NCBI GenBank assembly: GCA_947625355.1
Contig: CANQOA010000001.1
Coordinates: 62,001 to 126,000, forward strand
DNA from: an uncultured Oscillospiraceae bacterium
GTDB lineage: Bacteria > Bacillota > Clostridia > Oscillospirales > Oscillospiraceae
Direction of reading: 5' to 3'
DNA: 64,000 bases
Each line of letters starts with the position of its first letter. Within the stretch, counting starts at the first letter, position 1. The notes below the pieces were generated by a model, which searched no databases, had not been told where the DNA came from, and was given only the letters and a program-made list of their open reading frames with translations. Positions 1-13,290 of the stretch are shown piece after piece. The translations under genes and the position numbers were made by a program.

Positions 1-1026
1 TGGGCCTATGTCCGGCTTTACGGAAAGAGCCGATGGTCGCTGTCCATGTACGACTCCAGCCTGGGTTTGATCAACAACTACATTATCCCCTATTTCGGCA
101 GCATCCGGCTGCACGAGCTGTCACCCAGGATGGTGGCATGGATGTACGGGGACCTTTTGGGACAGCAGCGCTATAACGGCAAATTCCATAAGCATCCGGG
201 AGAGCGGTTATCGCCCCACACGTTGAAAAGCGTACACAAACTCCTACACAGCGTCTTTGAACAGGCCGTACTTTGGGAATATGTGCCCAGCAATCCCTTC
301 CAGCGGGCGATCCTCCCCAAAATAAAATCTGCTCCGCAGCCATTTCTGACGCCGGAGCAGGTCCACATATTGCTGGCCAACTGCAAGGACTTGCAGTTGA
401 AATTGGCCCTCGAACTGGCATTTGCCTGTACGCTGCGAGAGGGGGAATTGCTTGCTCTGACGTGGGACGACGTTGATTGGGATGAGCACACCCTCCGTGT
501 GAACAAAACGCTCACACGGGCCAGCCGTGCCGCCATAACGGCCCTGGAGCAGCGGGACACCCTGTATATCTTCCCGTCTGTCCGCAAGAATGCCAGCACC
601 GCTCTGGTGCTGAAAGCCCCAAAGACTGATGCCAGCAACCGGATCGTCTACCTGCCGCCCACCGTGATGGGGTCGCTCCTTTTGTGGAAGGGATCGTGCG
701 GAACGCCGCCAGAAGAAGCGCCGAACTTGATCTTCACCTGCGACCGGGGACTCCCATTGCAGAACAGCTTTCTTTTGGAGCAGTTCCACGCGTTGCTAAC
801 CTCCTGCAGTCTGCCGAAGGTCACCTTCCACAGTCTGCGGCATAGCAGCATCACCTATAAGCTCATCCTCACCCACGGCAACATCAAGGCGGTGCAGGGC
901 GATTCCGGGCACGCCCAGGCAGATATGATCACCGAGGTCTACGGGCACATTCTCGACCAGCGGCGCCGCGCCAGTGCGGAGCTGTTTGAGGCGGATTTCT
1001 TTAAGGGGCAATTCCCAGTCAACTAA
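1..1026 (+). CDS. Tyrosine recombinase (phage/ICE-type integrase), 5' end outside window
   Basis: DNA strand exchange enzyme for site-specific integration and excision. The frame is open to the first base, so the N-terminus is missing; an internal Met lies at 46. The N-terminal part is a SAM-like core-binding domain. The C-terminal catalytic domain shows the expected set: Arg in LREGELLALTW, HSLRH, the later His in SGHAQ and the nucleophile Tyr in EVYGHI. The best match is the integrase group of Tn916-like and tRNA-targeting elements. CAGTCAAcTA-type repeats begin in its last codons. The tRNA-Arg remnant 1.8 kb downstream is a plausible attachment site for it (inference). Confidence 0.9.
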   Translation, partial: WAYVRLYGKSRWSLSMYDSSLGLINNYIIPYFGSIRLHELSPRMVAWMYGDLLGQQRYNGKFHKHPGERLSPHTLKSVHKLLHSVFEQAVLWEYVPSNPFQRAILPKIKSAPQPFLTPEQVHILLANCKDLQLKLALELAFACTLREGELLALTWDDVDWDEHTLRVNKTLTRASRAAITALEQRDTLYIFPSVRKNASTALVLKAPKTDASNRIVYLPPTVMGSLLLWKGSCGTPPEEAPNLIFTCDRGLPLQNSFLLEQFHALLTSCSLPKVTFHSLRHSSITYKLILTHGNIKAVQGDSGHAQADMITEVYGHILDQRRRASAELFEADFFKGQFPVN

Positions 1027-1094: not shown

Positions 1095-2558
1095 CTAAGC
1101 CCAATACGGAAGGTAGCGTCTGTTTTTATCCGCTGTGGAATCCTCTGAGACCTTGATCAAGCCAACCGCACAGGTCTCGGTCAGCAGCCGGGAGATCATC
1201 GAACGGTTCTTTGCAGGTATCGCAAACCTCTCGCGCAGAGAAGAGTTAGTCATATATTCGCGATTCACCCGTTTCAGGCAGGCATGGAGATAGCAAGCAC
1301 GTACACGATCATCCTTTGTCATATCACCAAATGTCTGATAAGCGTAGAGGATAACCTTTGTATGATTGTCGTATATCTCGATCTCCGGAGCCGGGAGCTG
1401 ATAGAATTCTGTCTGTGCCACGACCTTGTCATATCCGCTGCCTCGCTCCTCACACACGCCCACACGACGCATAAAAGAAGCCAAGCTCTCGTTTCTGGAT
1501 ATAGGCGGATGATCTATAAATCGCTCCTTTTCGATAAGCGGCGTACCAGGATTTGTGATCTCCATCCGGTCGTCAAATATCTCCACCATCGGGCTCGTGC
1601 CTTGGGCAAAGAAATTCTGGTGGATGATTGCGTTTGCGACTAGCTCACGAACCGCCAACTCCGGGTACATCGGCACTGTCCGCCTCAGCGCCTGTCCCAT
1701 GATCTCATTTTCAGGAAGCAGACCGTTGATATAGCTGATCAGTCCCTCAAAGCCATTTGCGTATCCCCTTCCTCCAATCTGTTCTTTGCTCGCAGGGGTG
1801 ATACGGCTTTTGCCCTTGTATACGATAACACGAATCGCTTTTCGTTCCAACGACGGAAAATCACGTATTCGCCTGGCAAACAAAATTGCCCCTAAATTCG
1901 TGATGCTATAAGCGCCTGCATCGTTTTTTGTGATCATCCGATCTTGCAACAGCCGTTCGATGATTCGCTTTCTTCCGCTTGGCAACTCCAGAGAGAGCAT
2001 GTCAAAGTAGGCCGGATAGTCCAAAACTCGTAGGATAAACTCCTCCGACACATTTTCCATAGCGATCAGGCTCTCAAAGGGCCGCTTCGAGAGGATCGCC
2101 CAGAGTTCACGCTCAGTATCCGGAAAATCCTTTAGCTTTTTGTTGCTTGTATCGATCCGAATATAATCTGTTCCACGGAACTTCACCGGTGAAGCATATG
2201 CAGCCGTAATTTCCAGTAACACAACACATTTTCCATCGATCTCTGTTTTGTGAAAATAAAACTGGACTTGGGGCTCAAGCTGAGTAGCGATCCACAAACT
2301 CAATCCTTGATTCCCCACCTTGGCTGTATCCGGGTCGAAGCCTGTACCGACGACCTCATGAGACTCATCATTGACGCCCCAGATCAAGAACCCATGTGGC
2401 TGGCTGAAAAGCGCAGCAGTATTGGAAAGTGAGCTCACATATTCTCCGATTGCCTGGGGATCATAATAGTTCACTTTGAACTCTATCCAAGGAAGCTCCA
2501 CACTATGACTTCTGGCCTCATCTACAATGGCAGCTATCAGATTTGCATCGAAAGGCAT
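1095..2558 (-). CDS. AlbA_2 (Schlafen-like) / HATPase_c_4 ATP-binding protein
   Basis: The 487-aa protein has an N-terminal AlbA_2 domain, the putative DNA-binding module shared with Schlafen proteins (WIEFKVNYYDP, then NTAALFSQPHGFLIWGV). A central HATPase_c_4-like region (ELAVRELVANAIIHQNF) and a C-terminal winged-helix-like segment follow. Proteins of this type are frequent accessory genes in elements and are annotated as regulators or helicase-like ATP-binding proteins; the biochemical function is not settled. The start is ATG at 2558 after GGGGGGAG, with an extended -10 upstream. The gene lies between the integrase and the tRNA-Arg remnant, so it travels with the element. A defence role is possible but not shown. 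Confidence 0.8.
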   Translation of the reverse strand: MPFDANLIAAIVDEARSHSVELPWIEFKVNYYDPQAIGEYVSSLSNTAALFSQPHGFLIWGVNDESHEVVGTGFDPDTAKVGNQGLSLWIATQLEPQVQFYFHKTEIDGKCVVLLEITAAYASPVKFRGTDYIRIDTSNKKLKDFPDTERELWAILSKRPFESLIAMENVSEEFILRVLDYPAYFDMLSLELPSGRKRIIERLLQDRMITKNDAGAYSITNLGAILFARRIRDFPSLERKAIRVIVYKGKSRITPASKEQIGGRGYANGFEGLISYINGLLPENEIMGQALRRTVPMYPELAVRELVANAIIHQNFFAQGTSPMVEIFDDRMEITNPGTPLIEKERFIDHPPISRNESLASFMRRVGVCEERGSGYDKVVAQTEFYQLPAPEIEIYDNHTKVILYAYQTFGDMTKDDRVRACYLHACLKRVNREYMTNSSLRERFAIPAKNRSMISRLLTETCAVGLIKVSEDSTADKNRRYLPYWA

Positions 2559-3014: not shown

Positions 3015-4253
3015 CTAGGACAAGAAAACTTCCTGTTCAATCGTTTTGCCGTATTGGAGTATTTTTACAGCAGCATCATAAAATCGGTCAATAGCACCAC
3101 TTTGCAGCACCCGGTCGAGTTCCTCCAGATATGCCGGCGGCCTCGACAACCCAAAACGAGCATATTGCTCCACTTCGCGGCCACTCATCCTCATCGGCTG
3201 CAGGCGAGGAAATATCCGCCGCAGCCGCTCAAACATCATAAACCCTCCCAGGTCTATATCTCCCCAGAAAAAGAGGTCAACTTCATCTGATACACACACC
3301 GCCAGCTTTTCCAATAGAAGCCGCTTTCGTGGACTCATGAACCCGCCGTGATATATCACAAGCTCTTCTCTCGCCTGTTCCGACAGCAAGTACTCTTCAT
3401 AATTTGTCTTATTCTCAATGAATGTAATGCGCCGTATGCCGTCTAATATAAACATCTCAACGGCTCCAACCGCTGTGCTGGGCAGCGCCAGCCCCGTTGG
3501 AAATAAGGGCGTCGCGTCCACCTCTCCGGCAGATGTTACGATCGTGCAGCAGCCGGACATCAAATAGTATTCCGGGTGGGCATAAATACCGAGAAATGCC
3601 AGCTTTTCCCGTTCACTCAGTTCCTCCTGCGCGCAAAGCGAGCTCAGCTCATAGTCATATCTTTCCGCTATCCTCAAAAAGTCCTTTTGGAATTCCCGCT
3701 CAAATCTCTTGCTGTTTTGAAAGCAGCGAATACTGAATGTGCGGACCGTGACAGTCTCGCCCTCCAAGCGGTCATAGCATGTCAACAGCCGGAGGATATC
3801 CTGTAGAAACCCGTCGCCTTTTCTGCAGATCGCAGGCAGTCTCCACTCCTTCTGAAGCGTCTGACAGACTGCATCCCGCCAGGCTGCGATCCATGGTGTT
3901 TTGACACCGGACAGCGCCGTCTGGATCACCCCGTACACTTTTTCTGCTGTCTGCTGCGGATGCCCACGGCCGAGCGCCTGATACGCCCTTTCAACCTGAT
4001 CCAGTTCCAGAATGACCTTGGAAAAGACCGGCTGGCCGGATATCCATTCCAGCCGGACCAGGCCCTCCGCCTCCAGTTCCTTTGCGGCCTGATTGAACCG
4101 ATCCCTGACAGCGGCGGTCTCCCGGTCATATTCCGGCAGCTCCCTCTTATCGACGCGAAGCATGACGCGCCGGTTGGAGGCGCCCGGCTGCGTCAGATGC
4201 TTGCTGTTCTCGTACTTATCGAGCAGCCGAGACAGGATCACCTCTCGCTCCAC
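3015..4253 (-). CDS. jetD: Wadjet subunit JetD (Toprim nuclease)
   Basis: The 412-aa protein has the JetD layout: an N-terminal DUF3322-like winged-helix region and a C-terminal DUF2220/Toprim nuclease. Toprim-type acidic motifs are visible in FIENKTNYEEYL and FFWGDIDLGGFMMFERL. In known Wadjet systems JetD cleaves circular DNA that the JetABC condensin complex has extruded. The start is GTG at 4253 after GGAGGTG, overlapping the jetC end by 16 bases, so translation is probably coupled. It is the last gene of the operon. About 120 bases separate its stop from the tRNA remnant. Confidence 0.9.
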   Translation of the reverse strand: MEREVILSRLLDKYENSKHLTQPGASNRRVMLRVDKRELPEYDRETAAVRDRFNQAAKELEAEGLVRLEWISGQPVFSKVILELDQVERAYQALGRGHPQQTAEKVYGVIQTALSGVKTPWIAAWRDAVCQTLQKEWRLPAICRKGDGFLQDILRLLTCYDRLEGETVTVRTFSIRCFQNSKRFEREFQKDFLRIAERYDYELSSLCAQEELSEREKLAFLGIYAHPEYYLMSGCCTIVTSAGEVDATPLFPTGLALPSTAVGAVEMFILDGIRRITFIENKTNYEEYLLSEQAREELVIYHGGFMSPRKRLLLEKLAVCVSDEVDLFFWGDIDLGGFMMFERLRRIFPRLQPMRMSGREVEQYARFGLSRPPAYLEELDRVLQSGAIDRFYDAAVKILQYGKTIEQEVFLS

Positions 4254-7200
4254 GCGCTCTTCACCTCCTTGGTATAGGGAAGCACCTGCATCGTGTAGCG
4301 CTCCCTGCAGACCAGCAGCGTACGATCCGCCTGTGGCATGATATCCGGCAGCTTGTCCGGCGGTGTGCAGATGATCGCCTGCAGATGCATCCTCCGCAGC
4401 AGCCGGACGCTTTCGATGATGCGGTCGTTGTCCATCTTATTGAACGCCTCGTCGAACACGATCAGCCGCACGGTGTTGCCAAAGCTGGACGTATCATTGA
4501 CACGGTAGAGCTGGGCAAAGGAAGCGAGGACCGCTATATAAAAAGGTGTCTGGGTCTCACCACCGGACTTCGTATTTAGCGTTTGAGACAGGAGCTGTTT
4601 GTTCCCGTTCGGGTCCGTTGTCTCCAGGTCAAATTTCAGATAGGTGCGAAAATCCGTATAGAGCTCGATGTTCTTCTGCAGCTCGCTCTGCTTCCGGGCG
4701 TTGGTCTGCGTATCGTCCGACGCCGTGATACGCCCAAACAGGTCTTCGATAAGCGGGCCGTATTTTTGCTGGAACGGCAGGGCAAAGAGGCCGCCCTCGC
4801 CCTCGATCAGTTCCGGCGCCATGATCATGTCATAATAGGCGGCGTAATCCGGGTTTCGCTCGACCTTGAATTGATACTGGTCCGTTCCAAACTGCGCCTG
4901 CTTCAGCGCCCTGTTCAGATTCTTTACCTGCCCATCTACGTTTTGTATGCCATCCCGCAGTTTGGCAAGGAAGTCATTTTGGAACTGTTCCAGCGCGCTT
5001 TCCCGGGCCTGCTTGATCTTCTCTCTGTATCGGGGCAGTTCGCTCTCTTCCAGCCGGCGGCGCTCATCGTCGAATTCCTGGTTATCCATGACATCGACGC
5101 GGAAGGAGCACGGCTGGAACTGCTGGACGTAATCCCGGCGCGCTGTAAGCAGATTGTTCTTGGTCTGGGCAACGTCATTTTGCGCACGGGGCACTTGATC
5201 CCCAAAGTTTTTCGCGACCACGGAAGCACGCTTCAGCCTTTCTATTTCCTGCTCATACCGAGGCAGCCCGACTGTATTTTGATAGTCAGAGGAAAACTCT
5301 TCCTCGATCTCCGCATCTCGGGCCATCAACCTCTCGTTACGCTCCGGGATCTTCTCATAGTCCAAATTGCCCTGCTGGTTCTTCAATTCGCCGATACGGG
5401 CCGAACACGCCTCGATCTCGCCGCGCTGCCTGCCGATCGTTTTTTCCAATTCATCTATCTGTTTATCCAGCTCATTCAGCCAGAACAGATCCAGGTGGGA
5501 CAGTTTATCCTCGATGCTTCCCAGCTCCGTGGTGATCTCAAGGCCCCGGACATAGTCGCGCTGACGCTGTTCCGCCTCCTGGACAAAGCGGCCCGTGAAC
5601 AGGAACTCGCGCCCTTTTCGACCCGTCAGTTCATCGCATATCGGCTTTAACCGCCGCTCTTCGTCGGACAGCTCTTTCTGCCTGCTCAGGAGCATTTCTA
5701 TCCGCAGATCGATGGCCTTGCGGCCTATAAAGGCGTCCTCCATTTTGGACTTCAGCATCGGCCGGGCCACATAGCCCTGGTATAACATTCCCTCTGCCGT
5801 TACTGCCGTGCGGTGACGGCGAAGCTGGCTCGTATGGGTGCAGCAGACGACCCGTCCCAACAGATAGTCGATATAACTGCGCGCCAGCGGATCGTCGGTC
5901 TGAACTTTTTTCGCCAAGCTGTCGTCCCATGCCTCCAGACGTTCCCTCTCCCTCAGCTTCCCGATATCCACGAGGCCAAAGGACTGTCTGCGATACTGAT
6001 GCTTGATCCTGTCGAAAATCTCCAGCGCATCCGTGTATACGTCAGGATCCACCAGCAAATAGAATTTCTGCGTATTCAGATACCCCTCCACCGCGCCGCG
6101 CCACATCTCCTCACCGTCGGCGATCTCCAGCACGTCGGCCAGCACATTTACGGATACCGGCCGCTTATACCGTGTTAAGAGCTGCGAATGGAGCTGGTTT
6201 TTCAGATCAAGCAGTCCCTCCGGATAATCCTTGATGTTTTTCCGCAGTTGCGCCAGGGTTCCCTGGACCCGTGACATTTCCTCCCGCAGCCCGTTCATCA
6301 CGCTCTCCATCTCATACGCCGCTTTGCGCAGACACTCGGCAAATCCCTCTGTGGCCTTCTGCGCCGTCACAAAAACCGCGACTGACCCGGAAAAGATCTC
6401 CGGCGTGCTCGTTTCCAGCGGCAGGCATGCCTTTTCCAGCACGCCGGCTGCTTCCTTTAGGGCCATGAAATGCTCATCTTGGGGCCATTGGTCCGTGAGC
6501 CGGCACAGCGACACCAGTACATTTGCCTCTCGCTTTACGGCCTGGACCGTTCGCCCGATCCCTTCCATCAGGCGCTTTTGCTCCTGCTCCAGTGTCTCCT
6601 GTTGTCTCCGCAGCCGCTCCTGTTCCTTGTAAACGTCGTTTTGAGCGCGATCGGCTATCAGTTCATTCTTCCGGCGGTCATTCTCCTGGACCTGCCTTTT
6701 CAGCTCTTCTCTTTTATTTTCTTCGTCCTCTATCTGCCGGGCACAGTCATCGCGCTCCACGGTCAATTTTTCGATCTGTTGCTCCAGCGAGACTTTTTCC
6801 GCCCACAGCGCGAGAAACCGGTGAAGCTGCAGCCGGTCCACGGCCGCCTGATACTCACGGAAATACTGCGCGATCTTCGTCAGGCGCTCTATTTTTTCCT
6901 CCTGGCGGCGGGCCAGTTCCTCATGCCGCTTGTAGTCGCGGATATTCTGCTGCATGGCCTCGATATCCGGTTTGTCCGGAATGTCGCAGATATTTTCAGT
7001 GATAAATTCCTGAATGTTGACGATGGGCCGGAAGGAGACCGCCTTTTTCATCATCCGGCACACTTGCTCATTATGTACGTTCCACTTTGCCAGCAGATCT
7101 TCCCGATAGCGTTTATTGCTGTCGTACATCTGATAGCGGGACCCCAGCTGCGCCTTCAACCATGCCCGCAGGGCGGCAATATCCATGGGTACGCCGTTGA

Positions 7201-7612
7201 CAAGATAGCAGGTCCCCGGTATGGGGCTGTCATACAGGAAAAACTGATCCCTGCGGCTGCCGTCACTGTGGCAGTCAAAGACGATCCCGGCCGTAAAGCG
7301 GCCACCGGACTGATCGTCCAAAAACTCGCAGGCGATATAGCTGGAGAAATCCTTTCCCCGCCGGGATCTGGGATTGTTGGTGTCCATATCCGCCCGGAGA
7401 TAACCGTCCAGTGTGCGCTGGGAGCTGTCATTCGCCGCCTTGTTAAAGTTTCTGGCGTTCGTCTCGCCCAGAAGAACGATCTGCAGCGCGTCAATGATCG
7501 TGGATTTGCCCGCTCCGTTTTTGCCGGTGAGAAAGTTGATGTCGTCGATCTCCAGAAGCTGCTTTGAGAAATACAGCCAGTTAATCAACAGTATCTTCGT
7601 CAGCTTCTTCAT
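4238..7612 (-). CDS. jetC: Wadjet subunit JetC (SMC-like ATPase)
   Basis: This 1124-aa SMC/MukB-like ATPase carries Walker A GKNGAGKST at residues 30-38. Long coiled-coil arms follow, with many Glu/Arg/Gln heptads, around a central hinge-like globular region. The C-terminal head has the signature region KSGGETQTPFYIAVL and Walker B LIVFDEAFNKMD. In Wadjet it is the loop-extruding motor that recognises plasmids by topology. The frame is open further upstream, but ATG at 7612 (MKKLTKILLI) is the family-like start and gives a 32-base overlap with jetB. It acts with MukF-like JetA, MukE-like JetB and the nuclease JetD. Confidence 0.93.
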   Translation of the reverse strand: MKKLTKILLINWLYFSKQLLEIDDINFLTGKNGAGKSTIIDALQIVLLGETNARNFNKAANDSSQRTLDGYLRADMDTNNPRSRRGKDFSSYIACEFLDDQSGGRFTAGIVFDCHSDGSRRDQFFLYDSPIPGTCYLVNGVPMDIAALRAWLKAQLGSRYQMYDSNKRYREDLLAKWNVHNEQVCRMMKKAVSFRPIVNIQEFITENICDIPDKPDIEAMQQNIRDYKRHEELARRQEEKIERLTKIAQYFREYQAAVDRLQLHRFLALWAEKVSLEQQIEKLTVERDDCARQIEDEENKREELKRQVQENDRRKNELIADRAQNDVYKEQERLRRQQETLEQEQKRLMEGIGRTVQAVKREANVLVSLCRLTDQWPQDEHFMALKEAAGVLEKACLPLETSTPEIFSGSVAVFVTAQKATEGFAECLRKAAYEMESVMNGLREEMSRVQGTLAQLRKNIKDYPEGLLDLKNQLHSQLLTRYKRPVSVNVLADVLEIADGEEMWRGAVEGYLNTQKFYLLVDPDVYTDALEIFDRIKHQYRRQSFGLVDIGKLRERERLEAWDDSLAKKVQTDDPLARSYIDYLLGRVVCCTHTSQLRRHRTAVTAEGMLYQGYVARPMLKSKMEDAFIGRKAIDLRIEMLLSRQKELSDEERRLKPICDELTGRKGREFLFTGRFVQEAEQRQRDYVRGLEITTELGSIEDKLSHLDLFWLNELDKQIDELEKTIGRQRGEIEACSARIGELKNQQGNLDYEKIPERNERLMARDAEIEEEFSSDYQNTVGLPRYEQEIERLKRASVVAKNFGDQVPRAQNDVAQTKNNLLTARRDYVQQFQPCSFRVDVMDNQEFDDERRRLEESELPRYREKIKQARESALEQFQNDFLAKLRDGIQNVDGQVKNLNRALKQAQFGTDQYQFKVERNPDYAAYYDMIMAPELIEGEGGLFALPFQQKYGPLIEDLFGRITASDDTQTNARKQSELQKNIELYTDFRTYLKFDLETTDPNGNKQLLSQTLNTKSGGETQTPFYIAVLASFAQLYRVNDTSSFGNTVRLIVFDEAFNKMDNDRIIESVRLLRRMHLQAIICTPPDKLPDIMPQADRTLLVCRERYTMQVLPYTKEVKSAWSER

Positions 7613-8216
7613 CGCCGTCTTCTTCCTCCTTTCGCAGCATGGAGACCACAGCGTCCAGCCGTTCGCTGGATACCACCGTGAGGATCGTTGGCAAAATGAC
7701 GAATTTGCACCCCGTTTGGCTGAATCTGCCCTGTATCCGCTGAAGGATACTGTGCTGTTCAAAGATCGTCAGCGCCCGCTTCACCTCTTCCATATTGGGG
7801 CGGGTGGAGAAGATCGCATAGTCCGCCACCACCTTATCCAGCAGATCATGGACCGTGCAAAGCACATCCTGTTCCAAACCGGTCTGATCCTGGTTCTCGT
7901 CGTAGATCATGCGCAGGGCGAGCAGGATGGCGGTGGCTTTCTGATTGAGCGCACAGCGGTTGGCCTCGTCAGTATTTACAACGTAAAAGTACCCGTTAAA
8001 ATCGTCCTTCCGCAGATCCCAGTCCAGCAGGCCGAGATAGCCCCGCACCACCGATTGATGGAGGGACAAAAACGTATAATCAGGGTTGCTGATACGCCCT
8101 TTATCCTGAACATAGATCGTTCTGACGACAAAAGTACGGCTGAGGAGCAGATTGCACACACGTGTAAACTGCTCCAATTCCTTTCCGGAAAAGCGCTCAA
8201 GTTCCGAAAGATCCAT
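7581..8216 (-). CDS. jetB: Wadjet subunit JetB (MukE-like, DUF4194)
   Basis: The 211-aa protein matches DUF4194/MukE-like kite subunits of SMC complexes, with a winged-helix segment around SLHQSVVRGYLGLLDWDL. The C-terminus is strongly acidic (EEEDGDEEADED). In Wadjet it bridges the kleisin JetA and the JetC ATPase. ATG at 8216 lies after AGAGGAG and overlaps jetA by 20 bases; its own end overlaps jetC by 32. The nested overlaps indicate a single transcript and coupled translation. Confidence 0.9.
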   Translation of the reverse strand: MDLSELERFSGKELEQFTRVCNLLLSRTFVVRTIYVQDKGRISNPDYTFLSLHQSVVRGYLGLLDWDLRKDDFNGYFYVVNTDEANRCALNQKATAILLALRMIYDENQDQTGLEQDVLCTVHDLLDKVVADYAIFSTRPNMEEVKRALTIFEQHSILQRIQGRFSQTGCKFVILPTILTVVSSERLDAVVSMLRKEEEDGDEEADEDTVD

Positions 8217-9624
8217 CTTTCTTCTCCTCTTTCCTTTCCAGCCTGAACTGCGGGATGGAATAGGCCCCCTCTTTGTAGCTTCCGTCCAACGTCTTTACAT
8301 GATAAAAGCTCTTCCGGTCCCCTCCGTTCAGGACCGCCAACAGACACATGATATAGGCGTGGTCATCTTCCGGCGCCATATCCCTCGAATACAGGACCGT
8401 CTGCTCCCCAAACCGCTGGCGTATGTATTCCTCCTGCGCGGCGCGGCTGTACGGCGTTGACAACATTTCTTCCGCCTGCTCCCGTGTTTCCTGGCTGACG
8501 CTGGCATCTTCTACTGCAACGGGTTCGGTCATCTTGCGGCGGGTCGGCCGTTTGCGTATCCACAGGCTTTTTTCCGAAAGGAATGACTGTTCATAAAGCA
8601 GAAACGCCGGCTGAATGGCCTCTGTCAGCTTACCCGCCCTCCGATTCTGAGACAACCTCGTCAGAAGATAATTCAGATTGCCACGGATGTTCTGGTCCCA
8701 ATTCGCCAGGTTCTCCAGCTTCTGCGTGGTTGCCCGCGTATACCGCCGGACCTGTTGATCGATCTCGTTCAGATAATCGCTTTCAATGCTTTCATACCGC
8801 TCCTTGACCCAAAATATCTTCTCGATCAGTTCCCCCCGGCAGGCTTCCAGCGTGTCGCGCCGCTTATCCTGCAAGGCGGCATTGGCCATAGCTAACAGGA
8901 CCCCGTCATCCTCCAGCCACTCCTCCAGAATGGTCAGGATCGGGACGCGATACTTCGGAACAGAATCCTTGATCTTCAACGGGCGGATATATGCTTCCAT
9001 GACCCGCTCGCCAAAATCGTCAAAGTGCGTTGACAGGACCTCATTGATGTCCTGCATCTCAATTTGTATTTGAAAGTACCGCCTCACGTTGTGATAGACG
9101 GTTTTCAGCATTTTTATGAGCGCCATCGTGTTATCATAGGCGCTGTATACGGCCATCATCTTTTCATAGGCCGTTCCGCTGTCCTTTGCGACTTTTAAGG
9201 ACGAGTAGGTCCCGAAAACATAGGAATATCCCCGCATAGGTGCGTCATCACGCAGTTGATGAAGCAGCTCCAAAAGCCGGCTGCTGTACCCCGGAATGTT
9301 CAGATACTCCTCGAAGCTCGTATAATCCTTTTCCCGTTCTCTCTCAAACCAACCCTTGCTCCCCAGCTTGCGGATCAGAAATCGAGCACGGCCGGAAATA
9401 TCCCGCAGCTCCTCCTCTTCTATGTCCTCATCCTCAAACGTAGCCTGCGCAAGCTGCTGCTCCAGCCTGCCCCGGAGCATCATATAGTATGTACTCTCCG
9501 GGATCTTAAGATTGCTGTCACCGTATGCCTCATACAGCACATCAAGCGCGTCAGCGTATAAAGCGCGGTTAGGCGACGCCAACACAGAAAACAGTTCCGA
9601 AGGGATAGCCTCGAATAAGCGCAC
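8197..9624 (-). CDS. jetA: Wadjet subunit JetA (MukF-like kleisin)
   Basis: The 475-aa first gene of the Wadjet operon resembles the DUF5716-type JetA family. It has an N-terminal winged-helix segment (LFEAIPSELFSVLASPNRALYADALDVL), a helical middle and a C-terminal winged-helix region. Kleisin-type subunits of this kind bridge the SMC heads. The start codon is GTG at 9624 after AGAGGTG. Only 30 bases separate it from the divergent DUF5348 gene, so the jet promoter probably lies inside that gene. The subunit order A-B-C-D with overlapping ends fits an intact system; the type II label is tentative. Confidence 0.88.
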   Translation of the reverse strand: MRLFEAIPSELFSVLASPNRALYADALDVLYEAYGDSNLKIPESTYYMMLRGRLEQQLAQATFEDEDIEEEELRDISGRARFLIRKLGSKGWFEREREKDYTSFEEYLNIPGYSSRLLELLHQLRDDAPMRGYSYVFGTYSSLKVAKDSGTAYEKMMAVYSAYDNTMALIKMLKTVYHNVRRYFQIQIEMQDINEVLSTHFDDFGERVMEAYIRPLKIKDSVPKYRVPILTILEEWLEDDGVLLAMANAALQDKRRDTLEACRGELIEKIFWVKERYESIESDYLNEIDQQVRRYTRATTQKLENLANWDQNIRGNLNYLLTRLSQNRRAGKLTEAIQPAFLLYEQSFLSEKSLWIRKRPTRRKMTEPVAVEDASVSQETREQAEEMLSTPYSRAAQEEYIRQRFGEQTVLYSRDMAPEDDHAYIMCLLAVLNGGDRKSFYHVKTLDGSYKEGAYSIPQFRLERKEEKKDGSFGT

Positions 9625-10117: not shown

Positions 10118-10165
10118 CATATTATGCTCTTTTAAACTACAATATTGAAAGGGGAAACATTCATC

Positions 10166-10462
10166 ATGAACAACAACACTATCAATACCCTGTCCGGCGC
10201 GGTCACACTTCCTGTGTTCGACTTGTTGCACGACCGCATGAATATTCGTAAGATCCGGCGCTTCTATCACGGTCTGTGCGATTTTCAGGAATCAGATCAT
10301 GCGAACATTGCTGTCACGATCATCGACGTCCTCATCCGCTTGGCCGGAAGCGAACTCCCAACCGTGTATACCGAGGTAGTGGCATCCCCAAAACTCCAGG
10401 CCATCTTCCTGGACGAGTTTCTGGCTGACTTTGAGGACATTTTGAGCGAATACGGGGTGTGA
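10166..10462 (+). CDS. Small protein of unknown function (98 aa)
   Basis: This protein is acidic and mostly helical in appearance, beginning MNNNTINTLSG. No known domain is recognised. ATG at 10166 follows GAAAGGGG. An in-frame TTG seven codons upstream is less likely because it overlaps the ribosome binding site. The gene lies between the Wadjet module and the serine recombinase. A recombination directionality factor is one speculative possibility because of size and position. The long hairpin at 10063-10117 lies in its leader. Confidence 0.55.
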   Translation: MNNNTINTLSGAVTLPVFDLLHDRMNIRKIRRFYHGLCDFQESDHANIAVTIIDVLIRLAGSELPTVYTEVVASPKLQAIFLDEFLADFEDILSEYGV

Positions 10463-10786: not shown

Positions 10787-12319
10787 ATGGAGCAATACGT
10801 CATGTATCTGCGAAAATCCCGTTTTGACCGTGACTATGCCGAGTTCAGTGTAGAGGAAACACTCAAGCGCCATAAGGCGATCTTGGACAAGCTGGCGAAT
10901 GATCGTGGGTACCGTATTGCAAAAGTTTATTATGAGGTCGTTTCAGGCGAGTCCATCGCTGCCAGGCCGCAAATTCAAGAGATGCTGGCCGAGGTGAGCG
11001 AGGAGTTTTACGCGGGGGTCCTGGTGGTGGACCTGGAGCGTCTGGCCCGCGGCAACGGCGCCGACCAGGCCTACATCAGCCAGGTGTTCCAGTTTTCCGG
11101 CACCAAGATCATCACCCCCAACAAGATCTACGACCCCAGCAACGAGTTCGACGAGGAGTACTTCGAGTTTGGCCTGTTCATGAGCCGCCGGGAATACAAG
11201 ACCATCAACCGGCGTCTTATCCGGGGCCGCGAGAGCTCCGCCGCCGAGGGAAAGTACCTGGGCAGTATCGCCCCCTATGGCTACCAGCGCATCAAGCTGC
11301 CCAATGAAAAGGGCTACTCCCTGGAGCCTCTGCCGGAGGAGGCGGAGGTGGTAAAGACCGTCTTTGACATGTATCTGTCCGGCGACGGGACTGTGATGAT
11401 CGCCAATTACCTGAACGACCACCACATCCCCACCCGGCATGGAGAGCTGTGGACCTATTCCTCCATCTTCAATATGCTCAAAAACCCGGTCTACTGCGGC
11501 AAGATACGCCGTGGCTGGTGCAAGCAGGTCAAGCGCATCGAAAACGGCGAGGTCAAGCGGCATATCAAGCACCTGCAGGACCCCGGCGACTATGAGATAT
11601 TCCAGGGCCTGCACCCGCCGCTCATCAGCGAGGACATCTTCACCGAGGCCCAGCGCGTCCGCACAGAGCGCCCATCCAACGCCCATGTCAAAGAGAACTT
11701 TGAACTGCAAAACGCCTTCGCCGGTCTTATCTACTGCGCCAAGTGCGGCAAGCGCATAGGCCGCACCGTTTCCAACCGGGGCGTCCCCCGGTTCCGGTGC
11801 GTCAATCACCGCAACTGTCACACAGCCAGCTACGACTACGCCAAGACCGAGGAGCAGGTCATCTCCGCTCTGCGCCAATGGGTAAAGGGCTACACAGTGG
11901 AGATCGAAAACGTGAGCTTTGAGAGCGAGGCGGATTCCTGTCGGGACAGGATCGGGCAGCTCACCGCCGAACTGGAAAAGCTGAACGCCCAGCTGGATAA
12001 CGCCTTCGACCTGGTGGAACAGGGCCTCTACACAAAAGAGGAGTTCCGCCGGCGCAAGGAGAAGATCACCGGCAGCCAGAAAGCCGTCCAGTCCCAGCTT
12101 GACAGCCTCTATGAACGGCTGCCCGCCCTGGAGGAACAGGCGGACTTCCATGAGAACCTGATACCCCAGACGGAGGCGCTGCTGGACAGCTACGACCAGA
12201 TGGCCGCGACAGAGCGCAACAAGCTCCTGAAGGAGATACTCTACCGCATCGAGTACCGCAAGGACCATGACGGCGCGCTGGAGATCGACATCTATCCGAA
12301 GATACCCATGAAGCAGTAG
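10787..12319 (+). CDS. Large serine recombinase
   Basis: The 510-aa protein has an N-terminal resolvase domain with the catalytic serine in YLRKSR (about residue 11) and DLERLARGNG. A recombinase domain (GYQRIKL to NPVYCGKIRRGW) follows. Next come a zinc ribbon (CAKCG...CVNHRNC, about 318-345) and a coiled-coil segment. Enzymes of this class integrate and excise elements at short sites with a central dinucleotide. ATG at 10787 follows AAAGGAGG. The gene ends about 25 bases before the dyad in the spoIVB coding sequence, the usual position of an integrase at the end of its element. The first 190 bases look less GC-rich than the remainder. Confidence 0.93.
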   Translation: MEQYVMYLRKSRFDRDYAEFSVEETLKRHKAILDKLANDRGYRIAKVYYEVVSGESIAARPQIQEMLAEVSEEFYAGVLVVDLERLARGNGADQAYISQVFQFSGTKIITPNKIYDPSNEFDEEYFEFGLFMSRREYKTINRRLIRGRESSAAEGKYLGSIAPYGYQRIKLPNEKGYSLEPLPEEAEVVKTVFDMYLSGDGTVMIANYLNDHHIPTRHGELWTYSSIFNMLKNPVYCGKIRRGWCKQVKRIENGEVKRHIKHLQDPGDYEIFQGLHPPLISEDIFTEAQRVRTERPSNAHVKENFELQNAFAGLIYCAKCGKRIGRTVSNRGVPRFRCVNHRNCHTASYDYAKTEEQVISALRQWVKGYTVEIENVSFESEADSCRDRIGQLTAELEKLNAQLDNAFDLVEQGLYTKEEFRRRKEKITGSQKAVQSQLDSLYERLPALEEQADFHENLIPQTEALLDSYDQMAATERNKLLKEILYRIEYRKDHDGALEIDIYPKIPMKQ

Positions 12320-13290
12320 TCCCCTGTTGGCATGAAGGCGATGACACACACGTGTGTCACCGCGCCCACCAGCTTCCCGTTTTGGATGATCGGGCTGCCC
12401 GACATGCCCTGGACGATGCCGCCGGTGCGCTGCAAAAGCTCCGGGTCCGTCACATGGACCATCAGGTCCCGGCCGCCGCCGGACACCATGCCCGTGCGGG
12501 AGATCTCCACGTCATATTCCCGGATCTCCCGGCCTGCCACGCAGGCCAGGATCGTGGCCGGGCCCTTCACCACATCCCCCGGCGCGCCCACCGGGATGGC
12601 CGGGCGCAGCGCGCCCAGGCTGCCGCTCATGACGCCAAAAATGCCGCAGGAGGTGTTGGTGTTGATGCACCCCACCACATCGCCGCCGTCAAAGCTGCCG
12701 GCCAATTCTCCGGGCACGCCGGCGGCGCCCCGCTTCACATCCACGATCCGCGCCAGGCACACGCTGCCGTCCGCCACGGGCAGCAGCACCCCCGTCTCCA
12801 GATCGTTGACCCCATGGCCCAGGGCACCGAAAGCCCCGGTGTCCGGGTCGATATAGGTCACCGTGCCGATGCCGGTCACGCCGTCCCGCAGCCAAAGTCC
12901 CAGCCGCAGACCGCCCCCGGCCTCACGGGCCGGCGTCACCTCCACGGTGCGCAGCTGGCCGTCCCGCTTCACAGAAAGCTGTGCCGGCCCGCCGTCCATG
13001 CTCTCCACCGCGACCAGAAGATCGGCCGCGTCATGCACTGTCCGGCCCCCGATCGCCACGATCACATCCCCGGCCTGCAGGCCCGCTTCCCTGGCGGGGC
13101 ACGCCGCGCCGGACTGGGTCTGCACATCGGTGACGCCCGCCACCAGCACGCCCTCCATTTTTATTTGTATCCCCACCGTCTCCCCCACGGGGATCAGCTC
13201 CCCGTCGGCAAAGGCCGTCACCGTACAGGCGGCCGTTATCAACCACGCGGCGGCCGCTGCCAGCAGCCGCCGGCGCCAATGCTTCTCCAT
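12292..13290 (-). pseudogene. spoIVB: spoIVB (S55 peptidase), 3' end interrupted by the recombinase element
   Basis: SpoIVB is the forespore-secreted serine protease that triggers sigma-K activation. Visible are a signal/anchor segment (LLAAAAAWLITAACTVTAFA), a PDZ domain (about 55-125), the catalytic-region His in GALGHGVND, and the serine motif GIVQGMSGSPIIQNG followed by VGAVTHV. Family members then continue with a VNDPT-like tail of roughly 25-30 residues. Here the frame instead reads CVIAFMPTGDYC and stops inside the recombinase gene, overlapping it by 28 bases. ATG at 13290 follows GGAGGAAAGAGC. Without excision the protein lacks its conserved C-terminus. The usual downstream neighbour spo0A is not seen. 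Confidence 0.85.
12342..12359. other. Candidate serine-recombinase attachment site (attR)
   Basis: An 18-base dyad has perfect 8-base arms TGACACAC and GTGTGTCA around a central AC. It lies at the exact point where SpoIVB homology is lost and 22 bases past the recombinase stop codon. Inverted arms around a 2-base core are the standard architecture of serine-integrase sites. The precise crossover point is inferred. Confidence 0.6.

Follow-up and report, generated by a model that had tools for sequence, protein, structure and literature searches.

A 12.9-kb element with a large serine integrase interrupts the sporulation gene spoIVB at a predicted AC/GT crossover site

The split gene and the rebuilt attachment sites

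The window, by which we mean the whole 64,000-nucleotide stretch of DNA that was analysed (G000:C1:62001-126000), contains the 5′ part of the sporulation gene spoIVB and, adjoining it, the large serine integrase gene of an inserted 12.9-kb element. The genes and sites of the locus are given below in window coordinates.

1..1026, plus strand: tyrosine integrase at the far end of the element (Pfam Phage_integrase); the ORF starts left of the window (L003:5770-7026)
1095..2558, minus strand: cargo protein with AlbA_2/Schlafen and HATPase_c_4 domains
3015..4253, minus strand: JetD (PADLOC JetD1, E 1e-165)
4238..7762, minus strand: JetC (PADLOC JetC1, 1176 bits)
7581..8216, minus strand: JetB (PADLOC JetB1, E 7e-53)
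8197..9624, minus strand: JetA, Wadjet type I (PADLOC JetA1, E 9e-161; Pfam JetA)
10145..10462, plus strand: 105-aa ORF upstream of the integrase, with a 63% identical homologue at the same place in L014
10787..12319, plus strand: large serine integrase, 510 aa (Pfam Resolvase, Recombinase, Zn_ribbon_recom; PHROG 95 integrase), with relatives at broken spoIVB genes
12292..13290, minus strand: spoIVB 5′ part (codons 1-314) with an 18-residue element-encoded tail (12292-12349); PF05580 profile positions 3-195 of 210, E 1e-64
12329..12349, plus strand: P half-site of attR, element side (GGCATGAAGGCGATGACACAC)
12342..12359, no strand given: dyad within attR
12349..12357, plus strand: 9-bp core CACGTGTGT common to attL, whose copy lies outside the window (L003:5488-5496, about window −512 to −504)
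12350..12351: predicted crossover dinucleotide AC (GT on the spoIVB strand; bases 1-2 of the THV valine codon), the dyad centre of both attP and attB; the attL/attR pairs of four relatives share exactly GT
12352..12372, plus strand: B half-site of attR, host side, within spoIVB coding DNA

In a search of the whole genome, spoIVB was found in two pieces only. One is the 5′ part within the window; the other comprises the missing last 24 codons, which lie 12.9 kb away on the same contig and strand, at G000:C1:61437-61502, a little to the left of the window. The opposite end of the element, which the earlier note had proposed to look for, is thereby located ~510 bp left of the first base of the window, and it carries the same core: CACGTGTGT occurs at L003:5488-5496 and at window 12349-12357. 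On the minus strand, the SpoIVB frame reads ...GMSGSPIIQNGKLVGAVTH-V and continues with 18 residues from the element, whereas joining the flanks at the CACGTGTGT core gives an uninterrupted SpoIVB of 335 aa that reads ...GAVTHVLVNDPTRGYGIFIDTMLDAAA. The sporulation gene is thus split in frame and restored by flank joining, in the manner of skin-like elements, and the uninterrupted spoIVB genes of 12 relatives align without gaps across the break point. The inserted DNA amounts to 12,861 bp and has a GC content of 53%, compared with 62-64% in the flanks.

The plus strand at 12342-12359 reads TGACACAC-AC-GTGTGTCA, a dyad with perfect 8-bp arms around a 2-bp AC centre (12350-12351). It begins 22 bases past the stop codon of the recombinase, which ends at 12319, and on the minus strand it spans the ACA-CAC-GTG codons of the THV motif, the point at which spoIVB is broken; the position, spacing and centre described in the earlier note are all correct. 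As a bare pattern the dyad is weak evidence, and it is the location that decides: the site is the attR of the 12,861-bp element. The element contributes the left arm of the dyad and the host the right arm; attR thus combines a P arm with a B arm, and for this reason the perfection of its arms is partly accidental. Of the innermost eight positions, 8/8 match in attR, compared with 7/8 and 4/8 in the reconstructed attP and attB, respectively.

Rebuilt from the two junctions, attP reads GGCATGAAGGCGATGACACAC-AC-GTGTGTAACCACGATCATGCC, with dyad matches around AC at 16/22 positions (19/25 further out) and at no more than 9/22 positions for other centres within the core; attB is likewise most symmetric at AC (14/22). 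The expectation that the other end would show the same dinucleotide and half-sites is thus borne out, and attP has the form known for large serine integrases, in which ~50 bp of imperfectly inverted repeat flank a 2-bp crossover. Two earlier proposals need amendment. Imperfect inverted arms around a central dinucleotide describe the core well, but the attachment sites are far longer than the 18-bp dyad (attP ~44-50 bp) and the arms of attR are hybrid. The invariant VTHV codons, put forward as the reason for target choice, are indeed covered by the site, but the GAVTHVLVND coding stretch, whose DNA has a weak dyad of its own (GTGACC CAY-GT-NCT GGTCAA), describes the target better.

Near the attL end, a motif of ~31 bp (CGAATTTTCTCGACTTTCTCGAAAATACGTT, L003:5708-5738) is conserved in several spoIVB elements (L156, L159) and is found twice inside L157.

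Relatives of the integrase, the two-base core and insertion orientation

Genome-contig and family searches recovered about 35 distinct relatives of the integrase (~58-99% identity), almost all of them within ~70 bp of a broken spoIVB, and in the carrier genomes the gene is split into the same two pieces (profile positions 2-196 and 189-210). The exceptions are the L018 integrase, at a distance of 9 kb from the site, and two genomes, G278 and G046, that have an integrase fragment only, beside an intact spoIVB. Most relatives are from metagenome-assembled genomes, in many of which the two junctions are on different contigs. In a set of 400 family genomes, spoIVB is present in 344 and a full-length close integrase in 10. 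Each of five genomes of the same genus that lack a close integrase gave a single spoIVB match (E 4e-77 or better), consistent with an intact gene, and spoIVB is intact in the one whose sequence was read (G294).

Both junctions could be read in 20 genomes. The core shared by attL and attR always contains GT on the spoIVB strand, which is AC on the plus strand of the window, in support of the AC/GT core that had been predicted from the dyad. The shared core is exactly GT in four pairs (G313, G257, G409 and G424), whose junctions lie on different contigs, and is 3-14 bp long in the others; the pairs with both junctions on one contig (G000, G232, G152, G414 and G428) have cores of 6-10 bp, all with GT. 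In 18 of the 20 elements the symmetry of attP peaks at this same dinucleotide; it is weaker or off-centre in G417 and G368. Across the family, the consensus is roughly GGTATCAT-n4/5-TTACnCAY-GT-GTGnGTAA-n4-ATGATACC, and the resemblance between attP and attB hardly extends past the central dinucleotide, as is characteristic of large serine integrases. Natural variation thus pins the predicted crossover to two bases.

The integrase gene adjoins the 5′ part of spoIVB in some elements, including that of the window, and the 3′ part in most. In both orientations attP is directly downstream of the integrase and has similar arms, and on the integrase strand its dinucleotide is AC if the integrase lies by the 5′ part and GT if it lies by the 3′ part. 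On the integrase tree the orientation label requires four changes, at least two of which are forced by well-supported branches. In serine integrases, the non-palindromic central dinucleotide alone sets the orientation (Ghosh et al. 2003 and Smith et al. 2004, as cited in PMC3783163). The pairing of orientation with dinucleotide agrees with the prediction of this rule, and natural elements thus match what was established with engineered sites.

Several relatives depart from the common arrangement. The integrase located 9 kb from its site is that of G406 (L175/L176; L018:7823-9352); it is 63% identical, no closer relative was found near the junctions, and the element has different P arms (GTCCTCATGGGCG) and the same GT core. 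The fragments in G278 (L163:2474-3007) and G046 (L164:1630-2604) are copies of the catalytic domain only (~aa 1-162; 86-88% identical) that lie ~125-135 bp downstream of the intact spoIVB and are convergent with it. G422 (L167) has two spoIVB 3′ pieces ~3.4 kb apart, and no 5′ part was found in its 1.5-Mb genome. The only close relative on a viral contig, L195, terminates at the core, and its attR sequence is identical to that of the G421 element; its far end was considered as an attachment site and rejected. L195 encodes the integrase, restriction genes and others of unassigned function, with no terminase among them.

Gene content and comparison with known systems

The 510-aa protein combines PF00239, PF07508 and PF13408, the domain set of a large serine integrase; no other serine recombinase was recognised on the element. 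The adjacent genes jetA, jetB, jetC and jetD, arranged in one operon, form a predicted Wadjet type I system (PADLOC), an anti-plasmid defence. Scans of the main ORFs with Pfam, PADLOC and PHROGs gave only the integrases, Wadjet and the AlbA_2 protein, with no prophage structural, packaging or lysis genes; the same resources revealed neither a relaxase nor a coupling protein, by which an ICE or IME would be recognised, and the small ORFs had no match in them. A large serine integrase performs the attP × attB reaction alone and needs a directionality factor for the reverse reaction. Of the genes on the spoIVB elements compared, the serine integrase alone is common to all, and across them no conserved second gene was found as a candidate for this factor. 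The 105-aa ORF was considered for the role and rejected, being common only to L014.

The relatives carry very different cargo. The G428 element contains arabinofuranosidase and radical-SAM genes, that of G414 a 2,798-aa protein with a SpoIIE/CHASE2 phosphatase, that of G152 SLH/WG-repeat surface proteins, and that of G232 a SpaA surface protein and a TraG/VirD4-type T4SS coupling protein; methylase, helicase, NeuB, EPSP synthase or citrate-lyase accessory genes lie near the junctions of others. These elements are complete or partial, and in those split between contigs some of the genes may be host DNA. G414 and G428 have the integrase (85% nucleotide identity) and spoIVB in common, but no cargo. 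The integrases of G000 and G216 are 99% identical, although the SpoIVB fragments of their hosts are only 69% identical; this indicates that spoIVB elements move between species. In ~20 other gut bacteria, related elements with very different cargo break spoIVB at the same two bases, and the gene is a docking site for defence, surface-protein and metabolic cargo.

Interruption of sporulation genes is known from skin, gin and yin. The closest parallel is gin in gerE of Bacillus cereus, a non-phage genomic island in which a serine recombinase splits a sporulation gene and which shares with the spoIVB element a 9-bp common core, inverted repeats at the element's own site, a GC content below that of the host and defence cargo, restriction-modification in the case of gin (PMC5595907). 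Unlike the spoIVB element, gin targets a mother-cell gene, has three serine recombinases and has been shown to excise in sporulation (PMC5595907), whereas the target here is a forespore gene in known species, a single serine recombinase (510 aa) is recognised and excision is putative. The skin element in sigK of Clostridioides difficile likewise has a single large serine recombinase, and joining of its flanks restores a sporulation gene, but it is prophage-like, lies in a mother-cell gene and has a known directionality factor (PMC5025042), whereas none is identified in the spoIVB element. SPbeta in spsM is a serine-recombinase element (PMC4191935) and yin in yabG a prophage-like one (PMC10747680) that interrupt sporulation genes; both differ from the spoIVB element in being phage genomes in mother-cell genes with a different site and core. 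The SPbeta integrase (YokA/SprA) is the best full-length relative of the 510-aa integrase with a solved structure. Diverse large serine recombinases that use a single site in a conserved coding sequence, such as that of prolyl isomerase, have been described (PMC10083194), with no mention of spoIVB in the main text. As in Bxb1 and phiC31, attP and attB are dissimilar save for a non-palindromic central dinucleotide (Ghosh et al. 2003 and Smith et al. 2004, cited in PMC3783163), but the orientation switch was engineered there, whereas both orientations are natural within the spoIVB integrase family.

In the open-access literature we found no report of spoIVB as the target of an integrase, a skin-type element or a prophage. 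As a target, spoIVB thus appears to be new, and the locus supplies an exact attP/attB pair, usable in experiments, for a serine integrase family that was not described in the open-access literature found.

The responsible enzyme and the fate of SpoIVB

Two readings would separate the dyad from the adjacent serine integrase. The chance that the dyad is an ordinary regulatory palindrome, a terminator or a coincidence unrelated to integration is practically negligible: the window holds six perfect dyads with 8-bp arms and a 2-nt centre, so that the bare pattern is not rare, but this one falls, to the base, on the break, on the core common to both ends and on the centre of attP symmetry in 18/20 elements. 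It is also very improbable that the tyrosine integrase carries out the recombination and that the serine integrase is passenger cargo. This 418-aa protein does begin ~270 bp inside attL, but related spoIVB elements examined lack a close copy of it, with weak matches only in L014 and L029, and nearly all have the serine integrase directly beside the site. Tyrosine recombinases have a 6-8-bp overlap, and the shared core of attL and attR, which shrinks to 2 bp in four relatives, fits serine integrases instead. We rejected the tyrosine integrase as the responsible enzyme for its lack of close copies in related elements; it may be cargo or what remains of a nested element. When the left end was compared with the remainder of the element for repeats that might delimit such an insertion, a single, unconvincing 15-bp match emerged.

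The adjacent serine integrase is most likely the enzyme of the reaction, and we assign a probability of about 0.95 to the reading, drawn from sequence, that the dyad belongs to the attR of an integrated 12.9-kb element whose serine integrase is of a spoIVB-dedicated family with an AC/GT crossover. In the model that we propose, the large serine integrase would recognise attB inside the GAVTHVLVND coding stretch and recombine it with the ~44-50-bp inverted-repeat attP by crossover at the central AC (window 12350-12351; GT on the spoIVB strand). Insertion cuts spoIVB after base 2 of the THV valine codon, leaving a truncated SpoIVB with an element-encoded tail, and its orientation follows the AC or GT of attP on the integrase strand. 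The element is one member of a set of spoIVB-dedicated serine-integrase elements with exchangeable cargo. The two junctions, the restored frame, the position of the core, the target common to the family and the variable cargo are all seen in the sequences themselves. The element is presumably able to excise, and its insertion presumably disables SpoIVB. Neither an empty site of the same strain nor a circular form was seen, and a pattern search of viral contigs for an intact attP had no match.

In B. subtilis spoIVB is a forespore gene under sigma F/G, and in C. difficile it is under sigma G (PMC12251134, PMC3789822), whereas skin, SPbeta, gin and yin split mother-cell genes (PMC5025042, PMC4191935, PMC5595907, PMC10747680). 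Judged from this literature on other species, the target is thus not a mother-cell gene, and interruption of sporulation genes extends to a gene that is forespore-expressed in other spore formers. The usual explanation, excision in the dying cell, fails for such a gene, which raises the question of whether gut Oscillospiraceae carriers excise the element, sporulate with a truncated SpoIVB or cease sporulating.

We give about an even chance to a simple disabling of SpoIVB, with carriers impaired in sporulation until the element is lost and with young, transient insertions. The lost C-terminal stretch is highly conserved, the full-length close integrase is restricted to 10/400 genomes of the family, and near-identical integrases occur in hosts with ~70% identical SpoIVB, from which it follows that these insertions are recent. 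G421, which combines a decayed disrupted copy with a separate, intact spoIVB, fits this reading and counts against a skin-like element that is excised in sporulation to rebuild spoIVB in a host that still sporulates. Such an element is unlikely, but it has points in its favour: SpoIVA is kept in 25/25 element-bearing genomes searched, Spo0A is kept in the genome of the window, which has no second spoIVB, both halves of spoIVB remain open, and similar elements in sigK, spsM, gerE and yabG do excise (PMC5025042, PMC4191935, PMC5595907, PMC10747680). G152 and G288 have the same cargo and an element divergence similar to that of their spoIVB, and they appear to share one old insertion; their unbroken 273-codon 5′ part has a dN/dS of ~0.41 (one pair, including some upstream sequence), which favours excision and speaks against a plain loss of function. 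Excision nevertheless meets the difficulty that the known cases restore mother-cell genes while the spore keeps the element (PMC4191935), whereas spoIVB is transcribed in the forespore, where excision would strip the element from the spore chromosome unless it reintegrated; the lack of a conserved second gene as a possible directionality factor also weighs against it.

In G421, an attR with the decayed spoIVB 5′ part lies 3 kb from the complete spoIVB (L165:8780-12943), and on a second contig (L166:4659-5922) two attL-like 3′ pieces are separated by 1.2 kb, which suggests that spoIVB may have been interrupted more than once and rescued by a second copy.

The THV motif, at which the gene is broken, has been proposed as the PDZ-recognition motif of SpoIVB (PMC6581720). 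In L036, L169, L177 and L178, the truncated SpoIVB ends exactly at ...GAVTHV, with the stop codon provided by the attP arm and a C-terminal T-X-V. It is conceivable, though improbable, that the break at THV is functional and that the element acts as a reversible switch of a forespore gene, excising at forespore formation, restoring SpoIVB and reintegrating after germination, an active lysogeny by a defence island. If so, the truncated ...GAVTHV of these four relatives would be a canonical C-terminal PDZ ligand that could keep SpoIVB inactive during integration.
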